This document shows, piece by piece, positions 9,907-21,424 of a stretch of 42,976 nt of DNA. The number at the start of each line of letters is the position of its first letter. Within the stretch, counting starts at the first letter, position 1. Under the pieces are notes generated by a model that worked only from the letters and a program-made list of their open reading frames with translations, searched no databases and had not been told where the DNA came from. The stretch is from an uncultured Lachnoclostridium sp. (GTDB lineage: Bacteria; Bacillota; Clostridia; Lachnospirales; Lachnospiraceae). The DNA is taken from the NCBI GenBank assembly GCA_944376715.1, contig CALWDO010000020.1:1-42976 (forward strand), read 5' to 3'. Both the position numbers and the translations under genes were made by a program.

Positions 9907-9934
9907 ATTGTATCATGTTTCTTATGGTTGTCAA
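9907..9934 (-). promoter_or_regulatory. Sigma-A promoter of the Re-citrate synthase operon
   Basis: Minus strand: perfect TTGACA (9929-9934), 16-base spacer, TACAAT (9907-9912). The -35 box overlaps the stop codon of the upstream subtilase gene. Confidence 0.7.
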
Positions 9935-11628
9935 TCGGTTTTTCCGCTGACCGCCTGGAACCCTCCATACAGATCCAGAAGCCCGTATCCCCAGATACGG
10001 TTAGGATACTCAAATACCGACGGGCGCGCGGCGCCCCGCACCAGATACCTCTGTATTGTGACGCTGTCCATGGTCGGCATATTGCCTCTGACAATCCCCC
10101 ACTCCATCATCAGAGCACAGGCTCCGGCTCCCAGAGCAGCCGCGGCGCTGGTTCCCGTCAGCACCGATGCGTTGCCGCGCCGGTCTACCGCAGAGACTTC
10201 CGCCGCCGGCGCGGCCAGATCCGGCTTCTGCCGCTCATATCTGGTAAGGCCTCTTCCTGAATCCAGCCAGATACTGCCTGTTCTTGCGTCATACCCGGCA
10301 AATGAGATGACGCCCTCCGTATTGGCCGGTTCCGTTATCGTCGTATCCGGAGAAGAACGCAGAAAATAAGTTTCATCGGTGATAAATCCCGTTACCGGAA
10401 GCCAGATATGGAAGCTGCTGTCCAGGTCTCCTCTGGCATATACCCGGAGTCTCCAGATACCAGGAGTCGGATCCCGGAACACCAGCAGCAGCCGTTCATC
10501 TCCGGAAATCACCTCCGCAAGTTCGTACTGAATGTCCAGAACCGTCTCCTCAAAGACAAACTCATATCTCTGGCGTTCCAGGGGACGCGCGAAGATCCGG
10601 GGGATCCGTTCTCCTGCCGGAGAAGTCACCTCTATCGAAAGAAGCCCCGGCGTGTTCCCCCAAAGATTCATCTGAAATCCTGCCTCCCCTTCCCCTACTC
10701 GGAGCTCCACATCCAGATAACCGGTGTCTCCCGGTATCTCTCCAAAAAAGTGATGGCCCCGGTTTCCTTCGTTTCCCGCCGCCACAGCGACCGCCCGGCC
10801 CGCTCTTCTGGCAAATTCATTCAAATATAGTCCCAGAGGCGTAGTACCCGTATGTCCTCCCGAATTGCTTCCCAGGGCCAGGCAAATGACCAGCGGCATC
10901 TCTAATTCCGACGCCAGCATATCCAGATACCGGACCGCCAGCATCATGTCCGCTTCTTCATAGGCCACGGCGTCCTGCGGGATCTGCTGCAGACGCCGGA
11001 TCGACGCTTTCGCCGGCTTCAGTTTCACAAAAGCAATCGACGCCTCCGGAGCCGCGCCGATAAAGTTCAATTCTTCCAGCAGAGATCCTGCTGCGATAGA
11101 CGCCACCTTTGTCCCGTGCCCGTTGTCATCCGCGCCGGGCAGATTTTCCTCACCTTCCTGCAGCATCCGGTCAATCTCTTCCGCAGAATAAGCGGTCCCA
11201 TAGAGCATATCTCCCGGAGGCGCGCCGCTCTGGTCCGTCTGGTCCCACAGACCGATGACCCGGGTGCTTCCGTCCGTGTTGCGAAAAGCCGCATTCTCCA
11301 GCGTGATCCCGGAATCCAGAAATCCCAGGAGCACGCCGCGGCCCCGAAGCTGCAGCGCCGGCTGATTCTGAATGGTAAGGATTCTGGTCTCTTCCAGGCT
11401 CTCCGTGTCCATCTGGGTATGGCAATAGGTAACTGCATAATCGCCGATCAACATCCCGGAGGGATTGCGTATCACTTCCTCCTGGTTCATATAAAATATC
11501 ATCAGCCCGTCTGTCACATATTGCCCGCATATTCCAAGACGTTCCGCCTCTCTTAAAGCCGTCCGGGCATCCACCTTCCAGATATAATCAATATAGTCAT
11601 CGGACAGAATCTCTTCCCTGCAGCCCAT
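9931..11628 (-). CDS. S8 subtilisin-like protease, Csp germination-protease type
   Basis: Subtilase of 565 aa with an intact catalytic triad: Asp105 (GFLDSGI), His171 (DDNGHGTKVAS) and Ser494 (LTGTSAAAA), plus the oxyanion region VAVAAGNEGN. A short prodomain-like segment covers about residues 1-85 and there is no classical signal peptide. The large insert between about residues 290 and 430 forms a jellyroll in Csp proteases of Clostridium perfringens and C. difficile. Those proteases sit in the spore and activate the cortex hydrolase SleC on germination. The start at 11628 has GGGGG a few bases upstream. It lies after the terminator of the sensory operon and has its own candidate late sporulation promoter. 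Confidence 0.8.
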   Translation of the reverse strand: MGCREEILSDDYIDYIWKVDARTALREAERLGICGQYVTDGLMIFYMNQEEVIRNPSGMLIGDYAVTYCHTQMDTESLEETRILTIQNQPALQLRGRGVLLGFLDSGITLENAAFRNTDGSTRVIGLWDQTDQSGAPPGDMLYGTAYSAEEIDRMLQEGEENLPGADDNGHGTKVASIAAGSLLEELNFIGAAPEASIAFVKLKPAKASIRRLQQIPQDAVAYEEADMMLAVRYLDMLASELEMPLVICLALGSNSGGHTGTTPLGLYLNEFARRAGRAVAVAAGNEGNRGHHFFGEIPGDTGYLDVELRVGEGEAGFQMNLWGNTPGLLSIEVTSPAGERIPRIFARPLERQRYEFVFEETVLDIQYELAEVISGDERLLLVFRDPTPGIWRLRVYARGDLDSSFHIWLPVTGFITDETYFLRSSPDTTITEPANTEGVISFAGYDARTGSIWLDSGRGLTRYERQKPDLAAPAAEVSAVDRRGNASVLTGTSAAAALGAGACALMMEWGIVRGNMPTMDSVTIQRYLVRGAARPSVFEYPNRIWGYGLLDLYGGFQAVSGKTD

Positions 11629-11659
11629 ATACAGCCCCCGTTTTTGACCTGTTTTCTTT

Positions 11660-11686
11660 TACAGTATGAAAAAATGCCCCTGCTGT
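11660..11686 (-). promoter_or_regulatory. Candidate sigma-K-type promoter of the Csp-like protease
   Basis: Minus strand: AC (11685-11686), 16 bases, CATACTGTA (11660-11668), matching the Bacillus sigma-K pattern AC-N16/17-CATANNNTA. It overlaps the preceding terminator. Short consensus, so chance is a real alternative. Confidence 0.3.
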
Positions 11687-11699
11687 GACGCAGAGGCAT
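11669..11699 (-). terminator. Intrinsic terminator of the four-gene sensory operon
   Basis: Minus strand: ATGCCTCTGC pairs with GCAGGGGCAT (10-base stem, one G-U) around GTCACA, followed by six T (11669-11674). It lies 13 bases after the stop of the MFS-sensor gene. Confidence 0.85.
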
Positions 11700-11711
11700 A
11701 TAAGTCAATTT

Positions 11712-14705
11712 TCAGGCGGCTGTATCCGTCTTTTTTCTTCCTGTAACCGCAGAAACGATTACGAAAAGAACCAGAAATGCAGCAAATATGCCGCCGACAA
11801 TGGTCATTCCTGTCCTAGCGCCGACCATAAGCACGAAACCGAATATAATAGGGCCACAAGTCGATGAAATATTTTCAACGGTGGTCTCAATACTCATCGC
11901 CTTGCCGTTTCCTAGTCTTTCAACCTCAGGAAGCCCTGAGTAGTAGACAGACTGGGCAGTAAGTCCGATCCCGTCCGCAAATGCGAACATCGCAATTACG
12001 ATAAAGCAGCCCAGGATTGTGGGGCTGATCAGGAAGAGGACCAGCGCGGCGGCATAAATCACTGACGACAAGATCATGGATTTCTTTACCCCCAGTTTCC
12101 TTGCGGCGAGCTCTGCGATCGTAGGACCGACGTAGATAGAAATGACTCCGCTCACCAAAAAAGCAAAGGAGATATGCGTCTCGGTAAGCCCGCTTTCTTC
12201 TCCGAAGATCGGGAAGAAATAGCTGAGGAACGATGCGCAGATCACGTAGGGGAACACGATAAACAAAAAGTAGCTGATGATTCTCGGTGAGAAAAGGAAT
12301 TTGAGAATGCTCATATCCGACTTCTCGTCTGTTTTTCTGGAGGAAACCTGCTTCTCTCCGCTCATACCGCCGATGATAAACAGCAGTGCAGGAATAAGGA
12401 TCGCTGCTGCCGTCAGATAGGGAACCGAGTATCCGAATCTTTCCGCAAGAACAGAACCGATTACGGTACCGCAGTTTACGCCTGCGAGCAATGCAGCATT
12501 GAAACTTACAAAGCCCCTGCTCCGTACTTCCTCTCCCGTGTAAGACGCGATATACGTATTCACGGCAATCGCGAACATTCCTCCCGCGACGCCCGTAACA
12601 CAGCCTGCCGCAGTAAGCATGTAAAGATTGCCCGCATAAGCGGAAAGGATATTTCCTGCAAAAAAGAACATCGCCGACACACAGCAGAGTTTTCTCGAGG
12701 ATACACGGTCGGCTATAAAGCCCGCTGCAAAAGCAGTAATCGCTGCAAACAAGGTCTCAGCTGAAAGAGGAAGGGCCGCCGCCACCTCTACAGGCATAGA
12801 AAAGCTTTCTTCCCAGAGCTGCGTGCCGTAGATGGGTAAATACGCGGTAGAAATATTTGCAGCAAAATATACCAGAAATACTGCCGGACGGATCAGCGTG
12901 GGATCAAGCCGAACTTTTTCCCGCAGACATTTCTTTTTCAGGCGGAGGGCTCCGTTCAGGCTCACCAGTTCATTGATGATCAAAAGCGCCGTGATAACTG
13001 CCATAAACACATAAACTACCAGGTTACGGATCAGAGCATTATTTTCGGCAGTAAACGCATAAAGATCAGCGCCCGTTTCAAGGAGAGCGATCACTTCTCC
13101 ACTATCATTGAAGATCGGGTAAAGCACAAACATATAGCTGCCCGCTGAACTGGAAGAGGAATACGATTCATAAGGCTCTCCCGTTTCGTATATGTGCTGC
13201 TCAATGGAATTTTCATATCCTCCCGACATGGGATAGAAGCCTCCATGGTAGTCAGTACCCGAATATACCTCGGTGACGATGCCGTCGATAACTTTGTACA
13301 TCACGCAGTAAATGCCTGTATCTGCATTGATATCATCGTATATGACATTTTCGATGATATCGTTGATATGATTGTATGCATCGCTCCTGTAAGAGGCGGG
13401 GGAATCGAGCGCTTCCACATCTCCGGCGTCTAAATTCTGCGTGAAGATCAGGCAGATGTTCGACATCTTATTCAAAACTTCATTAAAATAACGTGTATTA
13501 TAATTTGAAAAGATCACAACCGAAGCAAGCGCAGTGACTGCAAAAGCCGTCAGCATAATGAGCAGCGGTATCTTCTGGCCGCTCTGCACCACAGCCGTTT
13601 TCAGCACAAATGCAAATTTTATGATCACAATCACCGTCATCACTGCAAGGGCCGCGATACACAGAAACGCGCACCATGTTCTTATGGTATACAAAAGCGT
13701 CTTTTCCGCATGTCCTCCCTGGAAAAGCAGATTTCCATCCTTGTCGCGGATGACAATATTATAACTATATTCATAATCGGCGAGATCATCGTTGTACGTG
13801 TATTCCGTCGTGATAAAAGACATGCTGTCGTCAGGAGAGATTTCCATCCCATTCAAAAGAGGCAGATGGGAGAGATCCTTTTTCTCCTCGTCATTGGCGG
13901 AATAATCCTGCGCATTAATCACAACGACAGGCTCTCCATTTTCAAAGCTAAAAATATTGCGGCATCCATAATCGTTTATGTAAAGTTTTCCCGTACTGTC
14001 ATATTCCGCTTCATAAGGCAGGCTGAAATACTCTTCTGTCTGGATCTCGGAATCGTCATAGATCAACTGAAGATCTCCTCCTGTGGATTCATAAACATCG
14101 CCCGTGCGCAGGACAAGACAGATCTTTTCTCCGTTCTTGGAATGGTAAACGGAAACATCGGCAATATCGATGCATTCAAAGGGGGTGTCAATGTAATGTT
14201 CCTCCAGGAGCTCACCGTCGGAGTTTATGCTGCAGATTCCCACAGAATGATCGCCGAGAAGCGCAAAGTAGAGTCCCTCATCTGCGATTTCCATGGAATA
14301 GATATCTGCGTCTGCATTTACATAAATATAATCGATAAAAGTTCCGTCGGAAGTATATCTGGAGATACGGGAGCCTTCATCATAGCCGCTCCCGCTTCCG
14401 GGAGCCACATAGTCGAGGATATAGATATACGTTCCGTCGGAAGTCACACCGTCCGCGTAGTAAAACCCTCCTTCAACCATACCTCCGGTGATTTTGAACA
14501 GGTAGTTCATCTGGGGATCGGCAGCGATCACGCTCGTACCGCCATCGGCAATCACATAATGATTCCCCTCCGTCCCCGTTGCGCACAAAGACATGGAGGA
14601 CATTTCAATGTCCGGCTTTAATGCCGATGAATCCAGCGTGTCTGAAACCGAGATAAGCAGGCAGACCAGCCCAAACATCACAATAAAATATACGATTTTT
14701 TTCAT
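11712..14705 (-). CDS. Extracytoplasmic sensor fused to a Major Facilitator Superfamily transporter
   Basis: Predicted 997-aa membrane protein in two halves. The N-terminal half has a membrane anchor (about 1-22), an extracytoplasmic beta-rich region with NHL/propeller-like repeats (about 45-335; recurring SDGTYIYILDY, SRYTSDGTFIDYIY), two membrane helices (about 335-398), a Cache-like extracytoplasmic domain (about 400-550) and another helix (about 555-580). The C-terminal half (about 600-990) is a full MFS transporter with the loop motif GFIADRVSSRK. The cyclase gene 37 bases upstream repeats the sensor layout. The start is ATG at 14705 with GGAAGGAAAG upstream; the 63 earlier codons of open frame overlap the cyclase gene. 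Substrate unknown. A frameshift joining two genes is unlikely because the frame is clean throughout. Confidence 0.8.
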   Translation of the reverse strand: MKKIVYFIVMFGLVCLLISVSDTLDSSALKPDIEMSSMSLCATGTEGNHYVIADGGTSVIAADPQMNYLFKITGGMVEGGFYYADGVTSDGTYIYILDYVAPGSGSGYDEGSRISRYTSDGTFIDYIYVNADADIYSMEIADEGLYFALLGDHSVGICSINSDGELLEEHYIDTPFECIDIADVSVYHSKNGEKICLVLRTGDVYESTGGDLQLIYDDSEIQTEEYFSLPYEAEYDSTGKLYINDYGCRNIFSFENGEPVVVINAQDYSANDEEKKDLSHLPLLNGMEISPDDSMSFITTEYTYNDDLADYEYSYNIVIRDKDGNLLFQGGHAEKTLLYTIRTWCAFLCIAALAVMTVIVIIKFAFVLKTAVVQSGQKIPLLIMLTAFAVTALASVVIFSNYNTRYFNEVLNKMSNICLIFTQNLDAGDVEALDSPASYRSDAYNHINDIIENVIYDDINADTGIYCVMYKVIDGIVTEVYSGTDYHGGFYPMSGGYENSIEQHIYETGEPYESYSSSSSAGSYMFVLYPIFNDSGEVIALLETGADLYAFTAENNALIRNLVVYVFMAVITALLIINELVSLNGALRLKKKCLREKVRLDPTLIRPAVFLVYFAANISTAYLPIYGTQLWEESFSMPVEVAAALPLSAETLFAAITAFAAGFIADRVSSRKLCCVSAMFFFAGNILSAYAGNLYMLTAAGCVTGVAGGMFAIAVNTYIASYTGEEVRSRGFVSFNAALLAGVNCGTVIGSVLAERFGYSVPYLTAAAILIPALLFIIGGMSGEKQVSSRKTDEKSDMSILKFLFSPRIISYFLFIVFPYVICASFLSYFFPIFGEESGLTETHISFAFLVSGVISIYVGPTIAELAARKLGVKKSMILSSVIYAAALVLFLISPTILGCFIVIAMFAFADGIGLTAQSVYYSGLPEVERLGNGKAMSIETTVENISSTCGPIIFGFVLMVGARTGMTIVGGIFAAFLVLFVIVSAVTGRKKTDTAA

Positions 14706-14742
14706 TTTCTTTCCTTCCCGCCGTTTATCGGGCTTTGATGCT

Positions 14743-17520
14743 TCACTTATTCGAGAACCGAAATACATTCTTATCCGTAGTACCGTTTTCCATCTGTTCC
14801 CTGATCTCACTGATATATCTGGAAACGGCGATATCTTCCGGATCGGCTTCCCGCACTCTTTCAAGACACTCGAGAGCCTCTTTTGCTTTGCCAAGATGGT
14901 ATTTCCTTATACCTGATTCAAAGTCTTCCCTGGTCTTGAGACGGGCACTGCACCTTTTGTCGTCAAGCGCGTCAAGCACTTCAAAAAGCGCCTTTACCTC
15001 ATGCACTCCCGCGACCTGTATCATACCCAGGAAGCGCATATTCGGCATAGAGTTTTCATCCATACGGTTCAGGGTATCCTTGGAAATAATCATGCCTGCA
15101 TGATATTGTTTTGTTAAAGATTCCAGTCTGGAGCTCATGTTCACCGTGTCAGAAATAACAGTGCTTGAAAGACGGTTCTCTTCGCCGATGATCCCGACCA
15201 TAGACATACCGGAATGGACACCAATCCCGATATTTATGCTGTCGTCGCCGATCTTCACACTCGTCTCGGGATTCAGCACGATCTCATGGTACAGTTCAAT
15301 CCCGGCGCGTACCGCGTCGTCCGCACTGGTAAACAGCGCCATTACAGCATCCCCTATATATTTATCAACAAAACCGTTGTGCCTTGTGATGATCGGTACC
15401 GCCTTTCCCGCCACCTCGTTCACAAGACGGAAAATATGCTCGGCGGTCATCATCTCGGAATTGAGGGAAAAAGAACGTATATCAAAAAATAAAATCGTCA
15501 TGTCCAGACATTTTGCATCTCCGAGTTTTATTTCCGTAATGCTCTGTCTGCCCAGAAGGTGCATGAACTGGATAGGCACAAACTTAAAATAACAGTCTTT
15601 GAGATTCGCAATATTGGAAAACGATGTGCTGAGATTTTCCGCCATTTTGTTTACGCCCGAACTAATGTCTCCCAGTTCATCCCTCGAAATATATTTCATC
15701 CTCGCGGATAAATCGCCCGATGCGATTCTTTCCACGATCTGGCCTGTCTTTTTCAGATGCATGATCGTGAAGAACGTAATTGCGCATATGGAAATGATGA
15801 TGAAAGGCAAGCCCAGAACCGCTTTCATAATCGTACCGCGCAGGATTTCCCCTGTCTGCACTTCAAGATTCGCCATATCTGCCCCGATTTCATGAATCGC
15901 TACAAGTTCTCCTCCGGAATCAAAAATCGGCATCTGTACATAGAGCCATGTTCCTTCAAAATCAGACACCTGTTCCACAACCGGCTTGCCTTCCAGAAGA
16001 GTCCGTTCATAATCGCTGCCTGCGGCCAAAGGACCATAAAGCATGAAATTTGAATAGGAGTCGTTGCTTATGGTCAAAAGGTAACGGTTTCCGTCGTTTA
16101 CCGCGTAAACGGCGTCATAATAAAGCGCATTCCAGGGATCTTCGTTGTCGTTGATGATCTCCTTCTGGATTCGGCGCAGTTCTTTGAACTCTTCCGTACC
16201 GATGCTGTCAATGCCCGTAAGTGACGCAATCTTGTCACCGTCATAGTATTCTGTCGTGGCGGCGCAGAAAGCTTCCGTCTGTACAGTAATATCATGAATG
16301 ATCGTACTTTCAAGCTGTGAATACATGAAATTTATCATGATAGACATGACTACTGTAATCGTCGGAATAATCAGTGCGATCTGTTTTACAAAAAGAGAAA
16401 TTCTCCTTTCAAAAACCTTCGTGACAAGAATCACCAGACCTGCTGCAAAGGACAATGCCGACACCGCATACAGCAGATATCTCACATATCTTACGGCATA
16501 AACAGAAGGCGCGACTGTAAAAGGCCGGCCAAGGTACTGTCCTGTATTATCCGAAGTATCCACAACAAACGGAACTCCGCCTGAAACTCCCGTAAGCTGT
16601 GTGCCGCTGGCAGAAAGATAGGAAATACCATTTTCAGAGAGCCCGTCGAGAACACGGTCATCCGCAACAACGGAACAGCTCCCGTCGGGCAGTATCTTCA
16701 TAATGCTGCCGCTGCTGTCATCGGCAATATAAAGAGCCTCCGGCGAGCCGCAGATATAGGTCGGCAGCACACCGCCCTCATAGATATCAAAACTGAAATT
16801 ACAGTATTCCGTCTCTTTTCCGTCAGGAGACAGGATCCCCACCTCTCCCGTACGTTTTATATAGGCGCAGCTTCCATCCTCAAAAAAGCAGAACTTGAAA
16901 TAGCTGAAATCCGCCTCTTCGCCGGAATTTCTATAATATTCGGAAACCACGGTACTCTCTGTATCCGCCTTGATAAATCTTATATTTCCATTATCAAAAA
17001 GCGCAAAGTAAAGATCGGTCCCATGGACGGTCATCCCGTTGATCTGGGGATTTCTGTGAGGAACCTGTTCTGCATTTGTATAGTCGGCGCGGAAAAGCTC
17101 CCCGGCAAATCTGCCGTTCCTGTCATATCGGCAGATGGATTCATACCGCGTAGAATAAGAATCAATATCGGTGATGATATACTGAACATAAATATTGCCG
17201 TTGTCGTCCGCGGCCACATCGGCAATATACCCTCCTTCCTCCTGGAACGGAAGCCCGTCAATGCTGTGTGAAACCATACCGTTTTTATCTGAAATAAGCA
17301 CTCTTGAAGAGCCGAAATCGGTTACTGCATATCCGTAATCTCCCATTCTGCAGCAATAGGCCGCATTATCCTCGTTGTATGTACCGGCCGTCCCGAAGCC
17401 GTCGCTGCTCTCTTTCTTCGGAAGAAGAAACGACGCTCCCAGACACACTGCCGCCGTAAGAAACCATACGACAGACACAATAAAAAATTTTCTTTTCATA
17501 ACCTGCGGTCTATTCTCCAA
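14743..17520 (-). CDS. Membrane-bound class III adenylate-cyclase-type sensor
   Basis: Predicted 925-aa receptor cyclase. Layout: anchor helix (9-31), extracytoplasmic beta-rich propeller-like region (32-335), two helices (340-397), Cache-like extracytoplasmic domain (400-555), helix (563-590), HAMP (590-640), cyclase domain (675-850), and a TPR-like tail (860-912). The catalytic set is complete: metal Asp680 (FFDIRSF) and Asp724 (KYIGDAVMA), adenine-specifying Lys720 and Asp791, and Asn794/Arg798 (DTVNMSSRLE). That pattern predicts cAMP rather than cGMP. The start is TTG at 17520 with AAGGAG seven bases upstream; an ATG seven codons later lacks a site. Second-last gene of the operon. Confidence 0.88.
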   Translation of the reverse strand: MENRPQVMKRKFFIVSVVWFLTAAVCLGASFLLPKKESSDGFGTAGTYNEDNAAYCCRMGDYGYAVTDFGSSRVLISDKNGMVSHSIDGLPFQEEGGYIADVAADDNGNIYVQYIITDIDSYSTRYESICRYDRNGRFAGELFRADYTNAEQVPHRNPQINGMTVHGTDLYFALFDNGNIRFIKADTESTVVSEYYRNSGEEADFSYFKFCFFEDGSCAYIKRTGEVGILSPDGKETEYCNFSFDIYEGGVLPTYICGSPEALYIADDSSGSIMKILPDGSCSVVADDRVLDGLSENGISYLSASGTQLTGVSGGVPFVVDTSDNTGQYLGRPFTVAPSVYAVRYVRYLLYAVSALSFAAGLVILVTKVFERRISLFVKQIALIIPTITVVMSIMINFMYSQLESTIIHDITVQTEAFCAATTEYYDGDKIASLTGIDSIGTEEFKELRRIQKEIINDNEDPWNALYYDAVYAVNDGNRYLLTISNDSYSNFMLYGPLAAGSDYERTLLEGKPVVEQVSDFEGTWLYVQMPIFDSGGELVAIHEIGADMANLEVQTGEILRGTIMKAVLGLPFIIISICAITFFTIMHLKKTGQIVERIASGDLSARMKYISRDELGDISSGVNKMAENLSTSFSNIANLKDCYFKFVPIQFMHLLGRQSITEIKLGDAKCLDMTILFFDIRSFSLNSEMMTAEHIFRLVNEVAGKAVPIITRHNGFVDKYIGDAVMALFTSADDAVRAGIELYHEIVLNPETSVKIGDDSINIGIGVHSGMSMVGIIGEENRLSSTVISDTVNMSSRLESLTKQYHAGMIISKDTLNRMDENSMPNMRFLGMIQVAGVHEVKALFEVLDALDDKRCSARLKTREDFESGIRKYHLGKAKEALECLERVREADPEDIAVSRYISEIREQMENGTTDKNVFRFSNK

Positions 17521-17541
17521 GAATAATCTCCTTCCATAAAA

Positions 17542-18426
17542 TCAGCGAAAAGTCAGATCATACTTTTTCAGGATCAGGCAAGGGTGTTCGATCGTTTTTG
17601 CGTATCTCAGCCCGGGAATACCCAGATCCTCTTCACAGTTCAGGTACTTGAACCTGTCCAGCATTTTTTCGGCAATCTTATACTCAAGCACAATACTGAG
17701 GTCGCGGGAACAGGTCCGGTCGGTCTTTTCAAGATTCACATCAAACGTCTCGGAATTCAGCGGAGTCCCGGCGGTATATCCCATCATGACGCCGTCCGCC
17801 TCCAGGATAATGCCCTCCATGCCGAAAAGCCTGAAATTCTCAAAATACTTTTTCACCGCGATCTGTTCATGAACGGCAGATTCGTCCGGCGACGCATTTC
17901 TTTTAAAAAGTTCCTCCGTGAATGAGACGCATTTCTTACAGTCCTCTTCGCTTTCAATCGGCCGGAACACAAATCTTCCTTCAAATTCTCTGCAGAACCG
18001 TCTCCATTGACGTCCCTTGTGACCTCTCAGTTCGGTTTCATCCTTGGTGCTGTAGATATAATCGCTGACATCGTCCAGCGCATCCACCGTAAACGACCCG
18101 CCGTACATTTTCTCCATCAACGGCAGCATTTTTTCCTCACAGGATAAAAGCCTGAGCGGAGCGCCGCAGGAATCGGCATACGCCCTCAGCTGCGCTACCA
18201 CGCCGGAAAGATCGCCCGGTCCCGAAGGGAACAGGAATTCAGGATCTTCCCCTCCAAAGAAACCGACGATATAAAAATCATGATAGAAACATATTTTGAG
18301 ATTGAGCATGCTTTCCCATGCGTAGTTATTGGCAAAGGAAAACTCCGACATCATTTTGTCCGAATACCGGAGCGCTCTGACGGCTCTTTCCATATCCGAC
18401 AATTCAATCTTCCGAAATTCCAACAT
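17542..18426 (-). CDS. DUF2156 protein (MprF C-terminal/GNAT-like transferase fold), copy B
   Basis: Soluble 294-aa protein of the DUF2156 family, whose fold is shared with the catalytic domain of MprF (lysyl-phosphatidylglycerol synthase). It is two tandem GNAT-like halves; the C-terminal half has the family motif YLNCEEDLGIPGLR near residue 263. Related proteins may move an aminoacyl or acyl group, but the substrate of stand-alone members is unknown. It lacks the MprF membrane part. The start at 18426 has only a weak GAGA-type site. It lies 64 bases after a paralogue and 21 bases before the cyclase gene. Confidence 0.8.
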   Translation of the reverse strand: MLEFRKIELSDMERAVRALRYSDKMMSEFSFANNYAWESMLNLKICFYHDFYIVGFFGGEDPEFLFPSGPGDLSGVVAQLRAYADSCGAPLRLLSCEEKMLPLMEKMYGGSFTVDALDDVSDYIYSTKDETELRGHKGRQWRRFCREFEGRFVFRPIESEEDCKKCVSFTEELFKRNASPDESAVHEQIAVKKYFENFRLFGMEGIILEADGVMMGYTAGTPLNSETFDVNLEKTDRTCSRDLSIVLEYKIAEKMLDRFKYLNCEEDLGIPGLRYAKTIEHPCLILKKYDLTFR

Positions 18427-18490
18427 TTTCTACATCATCTCTCATAATTCGTGCATAAATTATACCCTATCGGTTCCGTCTTTTGCAACA

Positions 18491-19408
18491 CTATTCAAAT
18501 ACAGCCGTGTACTTATCCAGCTTGCCGCAGGGACGGAGCGACTGTTTATCTTCAGCGATTCCTGGGATGCCCATATCTTCTTCCAGATTTATGTATTTTA
18601 TCTCCATATGCTGGAATGCGGCCTCCCTGTTGAGCCAATAGGTAAGCCCCCTTTGTTTCACTCCGTTTTTCTGAAAATAGTAGCACATCGTATCCGGGTT
18701 TATTTGTTCGTATGCCAGAAACGACATAGGCGTATTGCCGTCGTATGCGAGAAGAATTTTATGTCGTTCTGGGTCATATATCTCCATGAAGGATCGAAAT
18801 GCCTCTTTTTCGCAGCCATAAAAACAATCCCCGCATTTTCTCTCAGCACACCACGCGTCGAATATCCCGACGCATACGCCGAAAAGGCTGTCGGTGTACG
18901 GAACCGCCCTGATCCCGGGACAGTTCCGCATAAGGAAATTATAACCGCCTCTTTTCGTTTTCGCCGGAGCGCCTTTCATGGATACAAATTTTTTCGTTTC
19001 GTAGATATAGTCGCTGTATTTGTCGTCATAAGAAAAGAATACGTCCCTGCCGCAGGCAGCGGCAGCCTGTCTGTAAAACGGGATCTCAGAACTTGCTACA
19101 TATTCAAAAATAGCCTTTCGCCCTTCATCGCGGCACAGCCCGCATATCTCTGCAACTGCTTCATCAATAGACACAGAATGATTTTTTCTGAGCAAAATAA
19201 AAATTCTTTCGCCGTCTGTATCCACACCTGTTACTGCAAGTACATCCCGATACATTTTATATCTATAAAAAAAACGCTTATGCCAGGAGTACAACATGGC
19301 AAAAGCAGTGTCGGCAAAGGTATTGCAGTATCGATACGGTTCAAAATCCGCGGCGGAATCCTTGTCCATCGGCCTAAAATCTGAAAACTCGTCATTTGTA
19401 TTCGACAT
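18491..19408 (-). CDS. DUF2156 protein (MprF C-terminal/GNAT-like transferase fold), copy A
   Basis: Soluble 305-aa protein, first gene of the operon, paralogous to the next gene: it has the same DYIYETK region near residue 130 and YINLEEDMGIPGI motif near the C-terminus, but otherwise diverges strongly. Several Cys residues lie mid-protein (CAERKCGDCFYGCEKE). Family role is as for copy B; no substrate can be assigned. The start at 19408 has AGGG six bases upstream and lies about 30 bases after a good promoter. Two divergent copies side by side suggest either a heterodimer or two different substrates (inference). Confidence 0.8.
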   Translation of the reverse strand: MSNTNDEFSDFRPMDKDSAADFEPYRYCNTFADTAFAMLYSWHKRFFYRYKMYRDVLAVTGVDTDGERIFILLRKNHSVSIDEAVAEICGLCRDEGRKAIFEYVASSEIPFYRQAAAACGRDVFFSYDDKYSDYIYETKKFVSMKGAPAKTKRGGYNFLMRNCPGIRAVPYTDSLFGVCVGIFDAWCAERKCGDCFYGCEKEAFRSFMEIYDPERHKILLAYDGNTPMSFLAYEQINPDTMCYYFQKNGVKQRGLTYWLNREAAFQHMEIKYINLEEDMGIPGIAEDKQSLRPCGKLDKYTAVFE

Positions 19409-19439
19409 AGGAAACCCTGCTTTCTGTTTTATTCAGTAT

Positions 19440-19468
19440 ATTTTACCAGAAAAACCGAAAAATTGCAA
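19440..19468 (-). promoter_or_regulatory. Sigma-A promoter of the sensory operon
   Basis: Minus strand: TTGCAA (19463-19468), 17-base spacer, TAAAAT (19440-19445), starting transcription about 25 bases before the first DUF2156 gene. The -35 box touches the end of the preceding ABC terminator. Confidence 0.65.
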
Positions 19469-19510
19469 AAAATCTATCCTCATCCCAAAACGGAGCGAGG
19501 ATAGATTTTT
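19467..19510 (-). terminator. Intrinsic terminator of the ABC exporter operon
   Basis: AAAAATCTATCCTC (19468-19481) and GAGGATAGATTTTT (19497-19510) form a perfect 14-base stem with a 15-base loop; six T end the minus-strand side. Its position, 19 bases past the ABC stop, fits. Confidence 0.85.
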
Positions 19511-19528
19511 CTAATTATCTGTAAGCTT

Positions 19529-21424
19529 CTATTCCAGTTCAAATGCGCCGGTATAAAGCTGATAATATTTTCCTTTTTGAGCGATCAGCTCTTCGTGGCT
19601 TCCACGCTCGATGATCCGGCCTTGTTCCAGTACCATGATCACATCCGAGTTCTGCACCGTAGAAAGACGATGCGCGATCACAAATACTGTACGTCCCTTC
19701 ATAAGAGCGTCCATACCTTTCTGTACGATCGATTCCGTACGGGTATCGATAGAAGAAGTCGCCTCATCCATGATCATAACAGGCGGATCTGCCACCGCCG
19801 CTCTGGCAATCGCGATGAGCTGACGCTGTCCCTGTGACAGGTTGGAGCCGTTTGCCGCGATCATAGTATCGTAACCGTTTGGCAGCCTGGTGATAAAATC
19901 GTCGGCTCCTGCCAGTTTTGCCGCCTCGATGCACTCTTCATCCGTGGCGTCCAGTTTGCCATAGCGGATATTGTCCATAACCGTTCCGCTGAAAAGCACC
20001 GTGTCCTGCAGAATAATGCCAAGGGAACGACGCAGGTCGGCCTTCTTGATCTTATTGATATTGATGCCGTCATAACGGATTTTTCCGTCCGCGATATCGT
20101 AAAAACGGTTGATCAGGTTGGTGATCGTTGTTTTGCCCGCTCCGGTAGCTCCTACAAACGCCACCTTCTGGCCCGGCTCCGCGTAAAGCGTAATATTATG
20201 CAGAACCGTCTTCTTGCCGTCATAGCTGAAGTCCACATCGTACATGCGCACATCTCCGGCCAGTTTTGTATAAGTAACCGTACCGTCTGCCTTGTGCGGA
20301 TGTTTCCATGCCCACATACCGGTACGTTCCTGGCACTCCACAATCTCGCCATTCTCTTCTTTTGCGTTCACCAGCGTCACATAGCCGTCGTCTGCTTCCG
20401 GCTGCTCGTCGATCAGATTAAAGATACGCTGCGCGCCGGCCAGACCCATAACGACCGCGTTGACCTGATTGGACACCTGGCCGATATTTCCGCTGAACTG
20501 TCTGGTCATGTTAAGGAAAGGCACGGTAATACTGATGCTCAGAGCCATGCCGGACAGACTGAGATTCGGCACGCGGAAATACAGCAGGGCGCCGCCCACC
20601 AGGGCTACCACCACATAGAGGATATTTCCGATATTCCCCAGAATGGGCATCAGCGTGTTGGCATATTTATTGGCGCGCTCCGCCACACGGAACAGTTCAT
20701 CGTTGATCTTGTCAAAGTCTTCTTTTGTCTGCTCTTCATGGCAGAATACTTTTACGACTTTCTGGCCGTTCATGAGCTCTTCCACAAAACCTTCCGTCTT
20801 TCCCATCTGCTCCTGCTGGCGGATAAAATATCTCGCGGAACCGCCGCCGATTTTTTTCGTCACAAGCGTCATGAGCGCGATTCCAGCAATCACTACCAGA
20901 AACAGCCAGACGCTGTAATAAAGCATGATACACACAACTGTAGTTACAGAGACCAGCGAGATCAGAAGCTGCGGTATACTCTGAGAAATCAGCTGTCTCA
21001 GGGTATCAATATCGTTGGTATAATAACTCATGATATCGCCGTGATTATGCGTGTCAAAATATTTAATAGGCAGATCCTGCATGCCGTTGAACATCTTCTC
21101 ACGCAATTTCATCAGGGATCCCTGCGTAATCACCGCCATAGTTCTGGTATAAGTAAATCCCGCGATCAAAGACAGCACATAAAAGAAGGCAAGCAGTTTC
21201 ACCAGCCCGAACACCTGCCCGGAAACAGACGCCCAATCCCTGGACTGCCAGGTCTGCTCCACGATAGAAATAACATTCTGCTGGAATATTGCCGGCAGAG
21301 AACTGATCAGTGCGTTAAGCAGAATACAGACAATAACCAGAGGCAGCATCACCGGATAAAACTCAAATAACAATTTAATCAGACGCACAGCAGTGCCTTT
21401 TCTCGTTGCAGTCGGTTTACTCAT
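19529..21424 (-). CDS. ABC exporter half-transporter, consensus-site subunit
   Basis: Predicted 631-aa type IV ABC exporter with six membrane helices (about 15-320) and a C-terminal ATPase. Motifs: Walker A GATGAGKTT, signature LSQGQRQ, Walker B VMIMDEATSS with the catalytic Glu, and H-loop IAHRLST. A linker of about 60 residues rich in charged residues (after ADDGYVTLV) sits between the membrane and ATPase domains, typical of the longer partner in heterodimeric pairs. It overlaps the upstream ABC gene by 8 bases. ATG at 21424 is chosen because AGGTG is six bases upstream. Probably a drug, lipid or peptide exporter; substrate unknown. Confidence 0.9.
   Translation of the reverse strand: MSKPTATRKGTAVRLIKLLFEFYPVMLPLVIVCILLNALISSLPAIFQQNVISIVEQTWQSRDWASVSGQVFGLVKLLAFFYVLSLIAGFTYTRTMAVITQGSLMKLREKMFNGMQDLPIKYFDTHNHGDIMSYYTNDIDTLRQLISQSIPQLLISLVSVTTVVCIMLYYSVWLFLVVIAGIALMTLVTKKIGGGSARYFIRQQEQMGKTEGFVEELMNGQKVVKVFCHEEQTKEDFDKINDELFRVAERANKYANTLMPILGNIGNILYVVVALVGGALLYFRVPNLSLSGMALSISITVPFLNMTRQFSGNIGQVSNQVNAVVMGLAGAQRIFNLIDEQPEADDGYVTLVNAKEENGEIVECQERTGMWAWKHPHKADGTVTYTKLAGDVRMYDVDFSYDGKKTVLHNITLYAEPGQKVAFVGATGAGKTTITNLINRFYDIADGKIRYDGININKIKKADLRRSLGIILQDTVLFSGTVMDNIRYGKLDATDEECIEAAKLAGADDFITRLPNGYDTMIAANGSNLSQGQRQLIAIARAAVADPPVMIMDEATSSIDTRTESIVQKGMDALMKGRTVFVIAHRLSTVQNSDVIMVLEQGRIIERGSHEELIAQKGKYYQLYTGAFELE

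Follow-up and report, generated by a model that had tools for sequence, protein, structure and literature searches.

Two DUF2156 proteins, a receptor adenylate cyclase and a receptor-MFS fusion encoded together in Lachnospiraceae: a possible signalling and export gene set

Four neighbouring genes on the minus strand of contig C20 of a 2.9 Mb assembly encode two DUF2156 proteins, a receptor adenylate cyclase and a receptor fused to a complete MFS transporter. The contig stretch analysed, 42,976 nucleotides in all, is referred to here as the window. Part of the gene set recurs in other genomes, and the receptors of the two membrane proteins have a common origin. The best explanation, to which a probability of about 0.4 is given, is that the genes form a "make, export, sense" cassette whose outputs can be exchanged and whose cargo is a molecule derived from an amino acid. 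In this scheme a small molecule would receive an amino acid from the two DUF2156 proteins and leave the cell through the MFS half of the fusion, whose own propeller-sCache front would gate the transport by outside conditions. A further protein with this front end would report the same outside signal inward, here via cyclic AMP, and in most relatives via a SpoIIE-type phosphatase; an RsbW-like kinase gene is often present too, and its protein may be what the phosphatase acts upon. Feedback and the identity of signal and product are parts of the scheme that we infer.

The recurrence of receptor-MFS and DUF2156 genes suggests a signalling and export system. A wider proposal, put forward tentatively, is a new form of cell-cell signalling in Clostridia, in which an aminoacyl-transferase would make the signal, a receptor-gated MFS protein would export it, and a second receptor would pass it to cyclic AMP, a phosphatase switch or c-di-GMP, the whole being repeatedly built into eCIS (contractile injection) loci. 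If the enzyme-exporter-receptor reading is true, Lachnospiraceae, a major family among gut and rumen bacteria, would have a signalling route that might also control their contractile injection systems. A literature search, covering few subscription journals, found no description of such a route or gene set.

In the direction of transcription the order is DUF2156-A (18491-19408), DUF2156-B (17542-18426), receptor cyclase (14743-17520) and receptor-MFS (11712-14705), and the open reading frame coordinates confirm the intergenic gaps of 64, 21 and 37 bases given in the initial annotation. The genes are bracketed by two strong hairpins with T runs, both on the minus strand. One is an intrinsic terminator 3′ of the receptor-MFS gene (11674-11699; fold −18.0 kcal/mol, z −6.9). 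The other, missing from the initial annotation, separates the operon from the ABC transporter gene upstream (~19467-19511; −24.8 kcal/mol, z −6.8). The initial annotation had the genes bracketed by a promoter and a terminator; the terminator stands on its strong fold, but the candidate promoter (19440-19468, minus strand) is a weak match, with 9 of 12 consensus positions and a TG ahead of the second hexamer. It is not above chance, since positions 11000-20500 contain 17 promoter-like sites versus 14.0 ± 3.8 in shuffled sequences. A candidate internal promoter between the two DUF2156 genes (18459-18488, minus strand) matches at 10 of 12 positions and likewise belongs to a class of sites no commoner than in shuffled sequence. 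A single transcript spanning all four genes is likely. Directly past the terminator, on the same strand, is a subtilase (S8) gene (9931-11628) in which no signal peptide is seen by eye.

Relatives of the receptor-MFS protein were sought in 397 genomes of the family and 245 of the class, and those of the cyclase and both DUF2156 proteins in 200 family genomes, with 17 genomes of the genus searched in addition for the cyclase. At a threshold of E 1e-30, 28 of the 397 family genomes have a receptor-MFS match, 21 of them at full length, the window's own genome included. The class sample gives six matches: the own genome, G180 (already in the family set), G513 and G432 with new full-length proteins, G467 with a protein whose front is unmatched, and G436, with a receptor cyclase-like protein encoded in an eCIS-type locus. 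G320, a genome of the same genus, gives no match to profile A1 of the receptor-MFS protein. Further neighbourhoods were read in named genomes, scanned in a way that favours relatives of the five-row set A2; the names are mostly Lachnospiraceae, with single ones of Clostridiaceae, Clostridiales, Clostridia, Butyrivibrio and Synergistaceae.

Removal of repeats (L052, L061, L069, L070, L071), a 97.7% near-copy (L057, of L053), short or propeller-less proteins (L030-L034, L049; L031 has no propeller) and a receptor-only protein (L072) leaves 34 loci, or 36 with L100 (G513) and L101 (G432). The 34 are not independent (L053/L058 are 85% identical, L038/L056 78% and L063/L064 71%), and the contigs of L055 and L060 end near the fusion and may hide partners. 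Neighbourhoods of weak or short matches in G158, G104, G152 and G076 (contig C143) were read only in brief.

A same-strand DUF2156 gene lies within three genes of the full-length receptor-MFS gene in 21 of the 34 loci (23 of 36); it is absent from 13 of the 36, one of which, L068, has it on the other strand, and this absence counts against the cassette. A SpoIIE-type phosphatase is present within three genes in 23 of 34 loci (24 of 36); the 23 are 22 scripted assignments plus L053, a copy cut by the contig end that is 98.9% identical over 351 amino acids to a full one. Both genes are found within this distance in 14 of 34 loci (15 of 36), and an RsbW-like kinase gene in 10 of 34. L103 (G467; 1191 amino acids, matching from profile position 323 only), with a phosphatase upstream and no DUF2156, was left out; its inclusion would give 23 of 37 for DUF2156 and 25 of 37 for the phosphatase. 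Such neighbours are not expected by chance, because 12 genomes, three of them without receptor-MFS, hold in total only 16 DUF2156 and 23 SpoIIE genes by Pfam. Pfam undercounts DUF2156, however; it gives none in G180, yet a single-sequence search finds L026_5 there.

The closest relative found is L100, which consists of a phosphatase, a DUF2156 protein (46% identical to that of DUF2156-A), a receptor-MFS protein (33% identical to the window's) and a GNAT-like protein with an Acetyltransf_9 match just under the cut-off. Relative to L100, therefore, the window keeps the core of DUF2156-A and receptor-MFS, has DUF2156-B and the cyclase in between, and is without the phosphatase. No SpoIIE or RsbW gene is detected by Pfam among the four window genes; the own assembly (88% complete) has one SpoIIE-family match, on contig C34. 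A cyclase-like protein lies within three genes of receptor-MFS in two of the 34 other loci and is degenerate in both. The cyclase is thus the exceptional member of the set, the usual partner being a SpoIIE-type phosphatase, and in the window a receptor cyclase that seems active takes the phosphatase's place. The expectation that the genes stay together across Clostridia genomes holds for the core, but the exact four-gene operon is not seen in any other neighbourhood read.

The receptor cyclase (P0002; 925 amino acids, TTG start, minus strand) has Pfam HAMP and Guanylate_cyc matches. It displays a transmembrane helix, a propeller (~46-327), two transmembrane helices, an sCache domain (~402-559), a further helix, HAMP (594-631) and a class III cyclase domain (673-841). 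The sCache fold is found between transmembrane helices, ahead of HAMP, and the Pfam sCache_3_2 match is under its cut-off. Amino acids and small acids are known ligands of sCache domains. The propeller matches both NHL and olfactomedin propellers, which differ on blade number. The fusion (997 amino acids, ATG start, minus strand; analysed as P0001, with one extra K in front) has the order transmembrane helix, propeller (~38-330), two transmembrane helices, putative sCache (~425-547), transmembrane helix and 12-helix MFS domain (~598-990). The two proteins are 21% identical over 568 aligned positions (E 4.9e-8), and a profile of ten receptor-MFS proteins retrieves P0002 at E 9.3e-51 over profile positions 6-564. 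By these alignments the two receptors are homologous across the whole front half, from the first helix through propeller, paired helices and sCache to the last helix, so that the common domain order noticed at first reflects real homology. Structure predictions of both receptors, which the initial annotation had proposed, place the elements in the same order, the comparison being of order only. The cyclase model is weak (pLDDT 53.5, the cyclase part mostly below 50), and therefore only the propeller and Cache were taken from it.

It is unusual, and open to test, for one receptor scaffold to end in a cyclase in one protein and in an entire transporter in another. P0002 resembles receptor class III adenylate cyclases with HAMP in its extracellular sensor, its HAMP, its class III domain and the intact catalytic residues; it differs in its front, a propeller plus sCache held in common with a transporter. 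CbrA-type transporter-kinases are transporters fused to signalling parts. They likewise have transport and sensing in one chain, but in the window protein the sensor is extracellular and in front, with the transporter as the end domain.

All six class III catalytic residues are present in P0002: D680, K720, D724, D791, N794 and R798, which we take to be two metal-binding Asp (D680, D724), a Lys/Asp pair for adenine (K720, D791) and an Asn-Arg pair (N794, R798). P0002 probably makes cyclic AMP. Five cNMP-binding matches in the genome could read it. Among 15 aligned receptor cyclase-like proteins the catalytic residues are kept only in P0002 and L035_10, a full-length relative with nearly the same site (Asn at D791) whose lack of DUF2156 or MFS neighbours weighs against the cassette; the other 13 are degenerate. 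In 16 other members of the genus P0002 has no whole-length match, the best covering 251-912 and lying in an eCIS locus. A second class III cyclase match in the genome is on contig C47 (12903-13406, in a frame of 636 amino acids), some 5 kb from a cNMP-binding match (18532-18798).

Most aligned relatives of the window cyclase are pseudo-cyclases of eCIS loci. Eleven of the 13 degenerate proteins are encoded a few genes from PAAR-like genes or the eCIS marker Pvc16_N; for the remaining two, L024_11 and L041_9, the distance to a Pvc16_N match is about 9 and 12 kb, respectively. Of the 200 family genomes 20 have Pvc16_N, and in at least 12 of these a relative of the cyclase lies no more than about 10 kb from it. 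The own genome is one of these: contig C14 (34000-52000; L050) carries an eCIS with a sheath and Pvc16_N (both by Pfam) and a degenerate receptor cyclase of 890 amino acids. L104-L106, from three further genomes of this genus, show a similar order. Pvc16_N is also enriched in genomes with receptor-MFS (11 of 28 versus 27 of 369; Fisher p 9.8e-6, uncorrected for kinship). In L024 a DUF2156 gene, a phosphatase and receptor-MFS stand amid eCIS-type genes, and in L021 the set follows such genes. These associations raise the alternative that the set is an environmental sensor for eCIS, whose receptors would time the making or release of particles while DUF2156 and GNAT-like enzymes modify particle proteins, the window's copy being set away from the eCIS. 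This is doubtful. No Pvc16_N match is present in 17 of the 28 receptor-MFS genomes, the 13 aligned eCIS-locus cyclases are all degenerate whereas that of the window is intact, and no eCIS gene is found among 18 window proteins scanned, the own eCIS being on another contig. In eCIS-type loci, a large protein and then a small one of 170-181 amino acids are encoded shortly ahead of DUF2156 (L021:6246-9041, L065_2-3, L024_2-3); Pfam finds no match in either L021 protein or in the small protein of L024, the pieces searched.

The transporter half of the fusion has the 12-helix MFS fold by Pfam, predicted model and fold search. MFS_1 and Sugar_tr are its Pfam matches, with no other domain in the protein, and GFIADRVSSRK at 662 is presumably MFS motif A. 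NorA, SotB, VMAT and SLC37A4 are among the best fold neighbours; all listed matches cover the MFS half only, and the front shows the element order of the cyclase model. Among solved MFS chains, NorA also scores best with the family profile (1.2e-13). The same profile gives several NHL matches in which no single stretch passes alone; 6d69 and 5wm0 do pass. In L023, L027, L042, L054 and L101, paired peptide-exporter-like ABC genes, which we take to be NHLM or bacteriocin-type exporters by name, adjoin receptor-MFS, and this pairing suggests that in some loci the cargo may be a peptide, a point against the cassette. The NorA, SotB and VMAT matches and these exporter genes are consistent with sensor-gated efflux or self-protection, whereby the MFS half would expel a harmful amine or antimicrobial, DUF2156 and GNAT-like proteins would acylate it and the receptors would sense it. 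Such a function is unlikely, as the fold search scores SLC37A4 and further non-drug transporters equally well, and the phosphatase and RsbW genes and the varied enzymes of other loci fit signalling at least equally. The fold match is equally compatible with export and import, because SLC37A4, MCT1 and OCT1 share NorA's list; the outward direction in the preferred "make, export, sense" scheme is accordingly a presumption.

Both DUF2156 proteins, encoded on the minus strand, match Pfam LPG_synthase_C (DUF2156) above its cut-off: type A (P0004, 305 amino acids) at 1.8e-20 and type B (P0003, 294 amino acids) at 2.2e-25. Neither has a predicted transmembrane segment and both are soluble. The closest solved relative of the two is 2HQY, a DUF2156 structure named "conserved hypothetical protein" (4.6e-34 with P0003). 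A profile of ten DUF2156 proteins retrieves 2HQY at 1.6e-72, whereas no solved-structure chain of MprF reaches even E 1. PF09924 is matched by all ten aligned members. Enzymes of PF09924 that act with aminoacyl-tRNA on small molecules have been published, for example VlmA (PMC9379638), and an aminoacyl transfer by the window proteins would be in keeping with this. The VlmA-type tRNA-dependent transferases of the valanimycin and azodyrecin clusters, as far as that source describes them, likewise represent PF09924 in a gene cluster outside MprF (PMC9379638); the window differs in having a receptor and MFS and no hydroxylase partner seen, the comparison being of the shared Pfam family only.

A DUF2156 tree of 40 rows was rebuilt without the long-branch row L073_5, beside which an earlier tree had placed P0004, and with L100_10 and L101_8 added. 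P0004 is now sister to L100_10 (support 100/100), in a clade with 20 further receptor-MFS neighbours (99/95), of which L068_2 lies on the opposite strand. L023_8 and L054_9, DUF2156 genes directly after a receptor-MFS gene, form a group with P0003 at a support of 94/87, below the 95 mark; the top identity of P0003, 33%, is to a background DUF2156 gene and not to a module neighbour, and it is also related to the common single DUF2156 genes of the family. By tree placement, both window proteins have relatives adjoining other receptor-MFS genes.

MprF has DUF2156 as its synthase domain (PMC11630815), and the initial annotation proposed a split, signal-controlled MprF-like system. In the form considered here, DUF2156 enzymes would aminoacylate a membrane lipid, the MFS half would flip it and the shared receptor would exert control. 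The likeness lies in a DUF2156 domain beside a multi-helix transporter, and the recurrence of the two genes as neighbours (23 of 36 loci) and the homologous ectodomains agree with the proposal. MprF membership nevertheless fails on the flippase domain: the DUF2156 proteins are separate and soluble, without a membrane anchor, they are closest to 2HQY with no MprF chain matched, the transporter is MFS_1/Sugar_tr with MFS fold neighbours and is not the MprF flippase, and receptors and a cyclase are added. The reading is quite improbable. The initial annotation is therefore partly supported, its grouping of the genes being right in the core and its MprF reading one of several and not the best supported.

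That unrelated genes are merely chance neighbours is very improbable: the exact four-gene order is indeed found nowhere else, but the homologous receptors of the two membrane genes speak against it, and for DUF2156 and the phosphatase chance adjacency is rejected by recurrence and copy numbers. For the cyclase gene it is possible, the only ties to the set being the shared receptor and the operon structure.

Exchangeable parts, as the "make, export, sense" cassette would have them, are seen on both the enzyme and the output side. Where DUF2156 is absent, receptor-MFS may stand by a formyltransferase (L043) or by proteins that are GNAT-like by eye (L025, L028, L029); in L025 Pfam gives only a sub-threshold match of another family. 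Short relatives of receptor-MFS that lack DUF2156 adjoin a formyltransferase (L033), an alanine racemase (L049) and a Ddl-type ligase (L030-L032), with an aminomutase-like radical SAM protein as well in L031. Counting against the cassette, a protein family of 373-469 amino acids where whole takes the place of DUF2156 and adjoins receptor-MFS or lies a few genes off in 7 of the 34 loci (L044:6414-7805, L045:9794-11119, L046:6920-8041, L047:6138-7547, L048:6384-7523, L027_8, L042_1), and none of the four members tested (L044, L045, L046, L048) has a Pfam match.

Judged from sequence, the outputs vary behind related inputs: beside the cyclase and the phosphatase there is a third kind, GGDEF, in L072 (9857-13259), where the gene for a receptor-only protein of 567 amino acids overlaps by 8 bases with the GGDEF gene behind it. 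Of 23 phosphatases, 15 match the L021 cyclase-like protein in its front part. Binding-protein lipoproteins (Bmp, ABC_sub_bind) are present in some loci. In L031 (7511-10954) an MFS protein has an ABC_sub_bind-like C-terminus, below the Pfam cut-off, and the two parts are separate neighbouring genes in L032 and L033.
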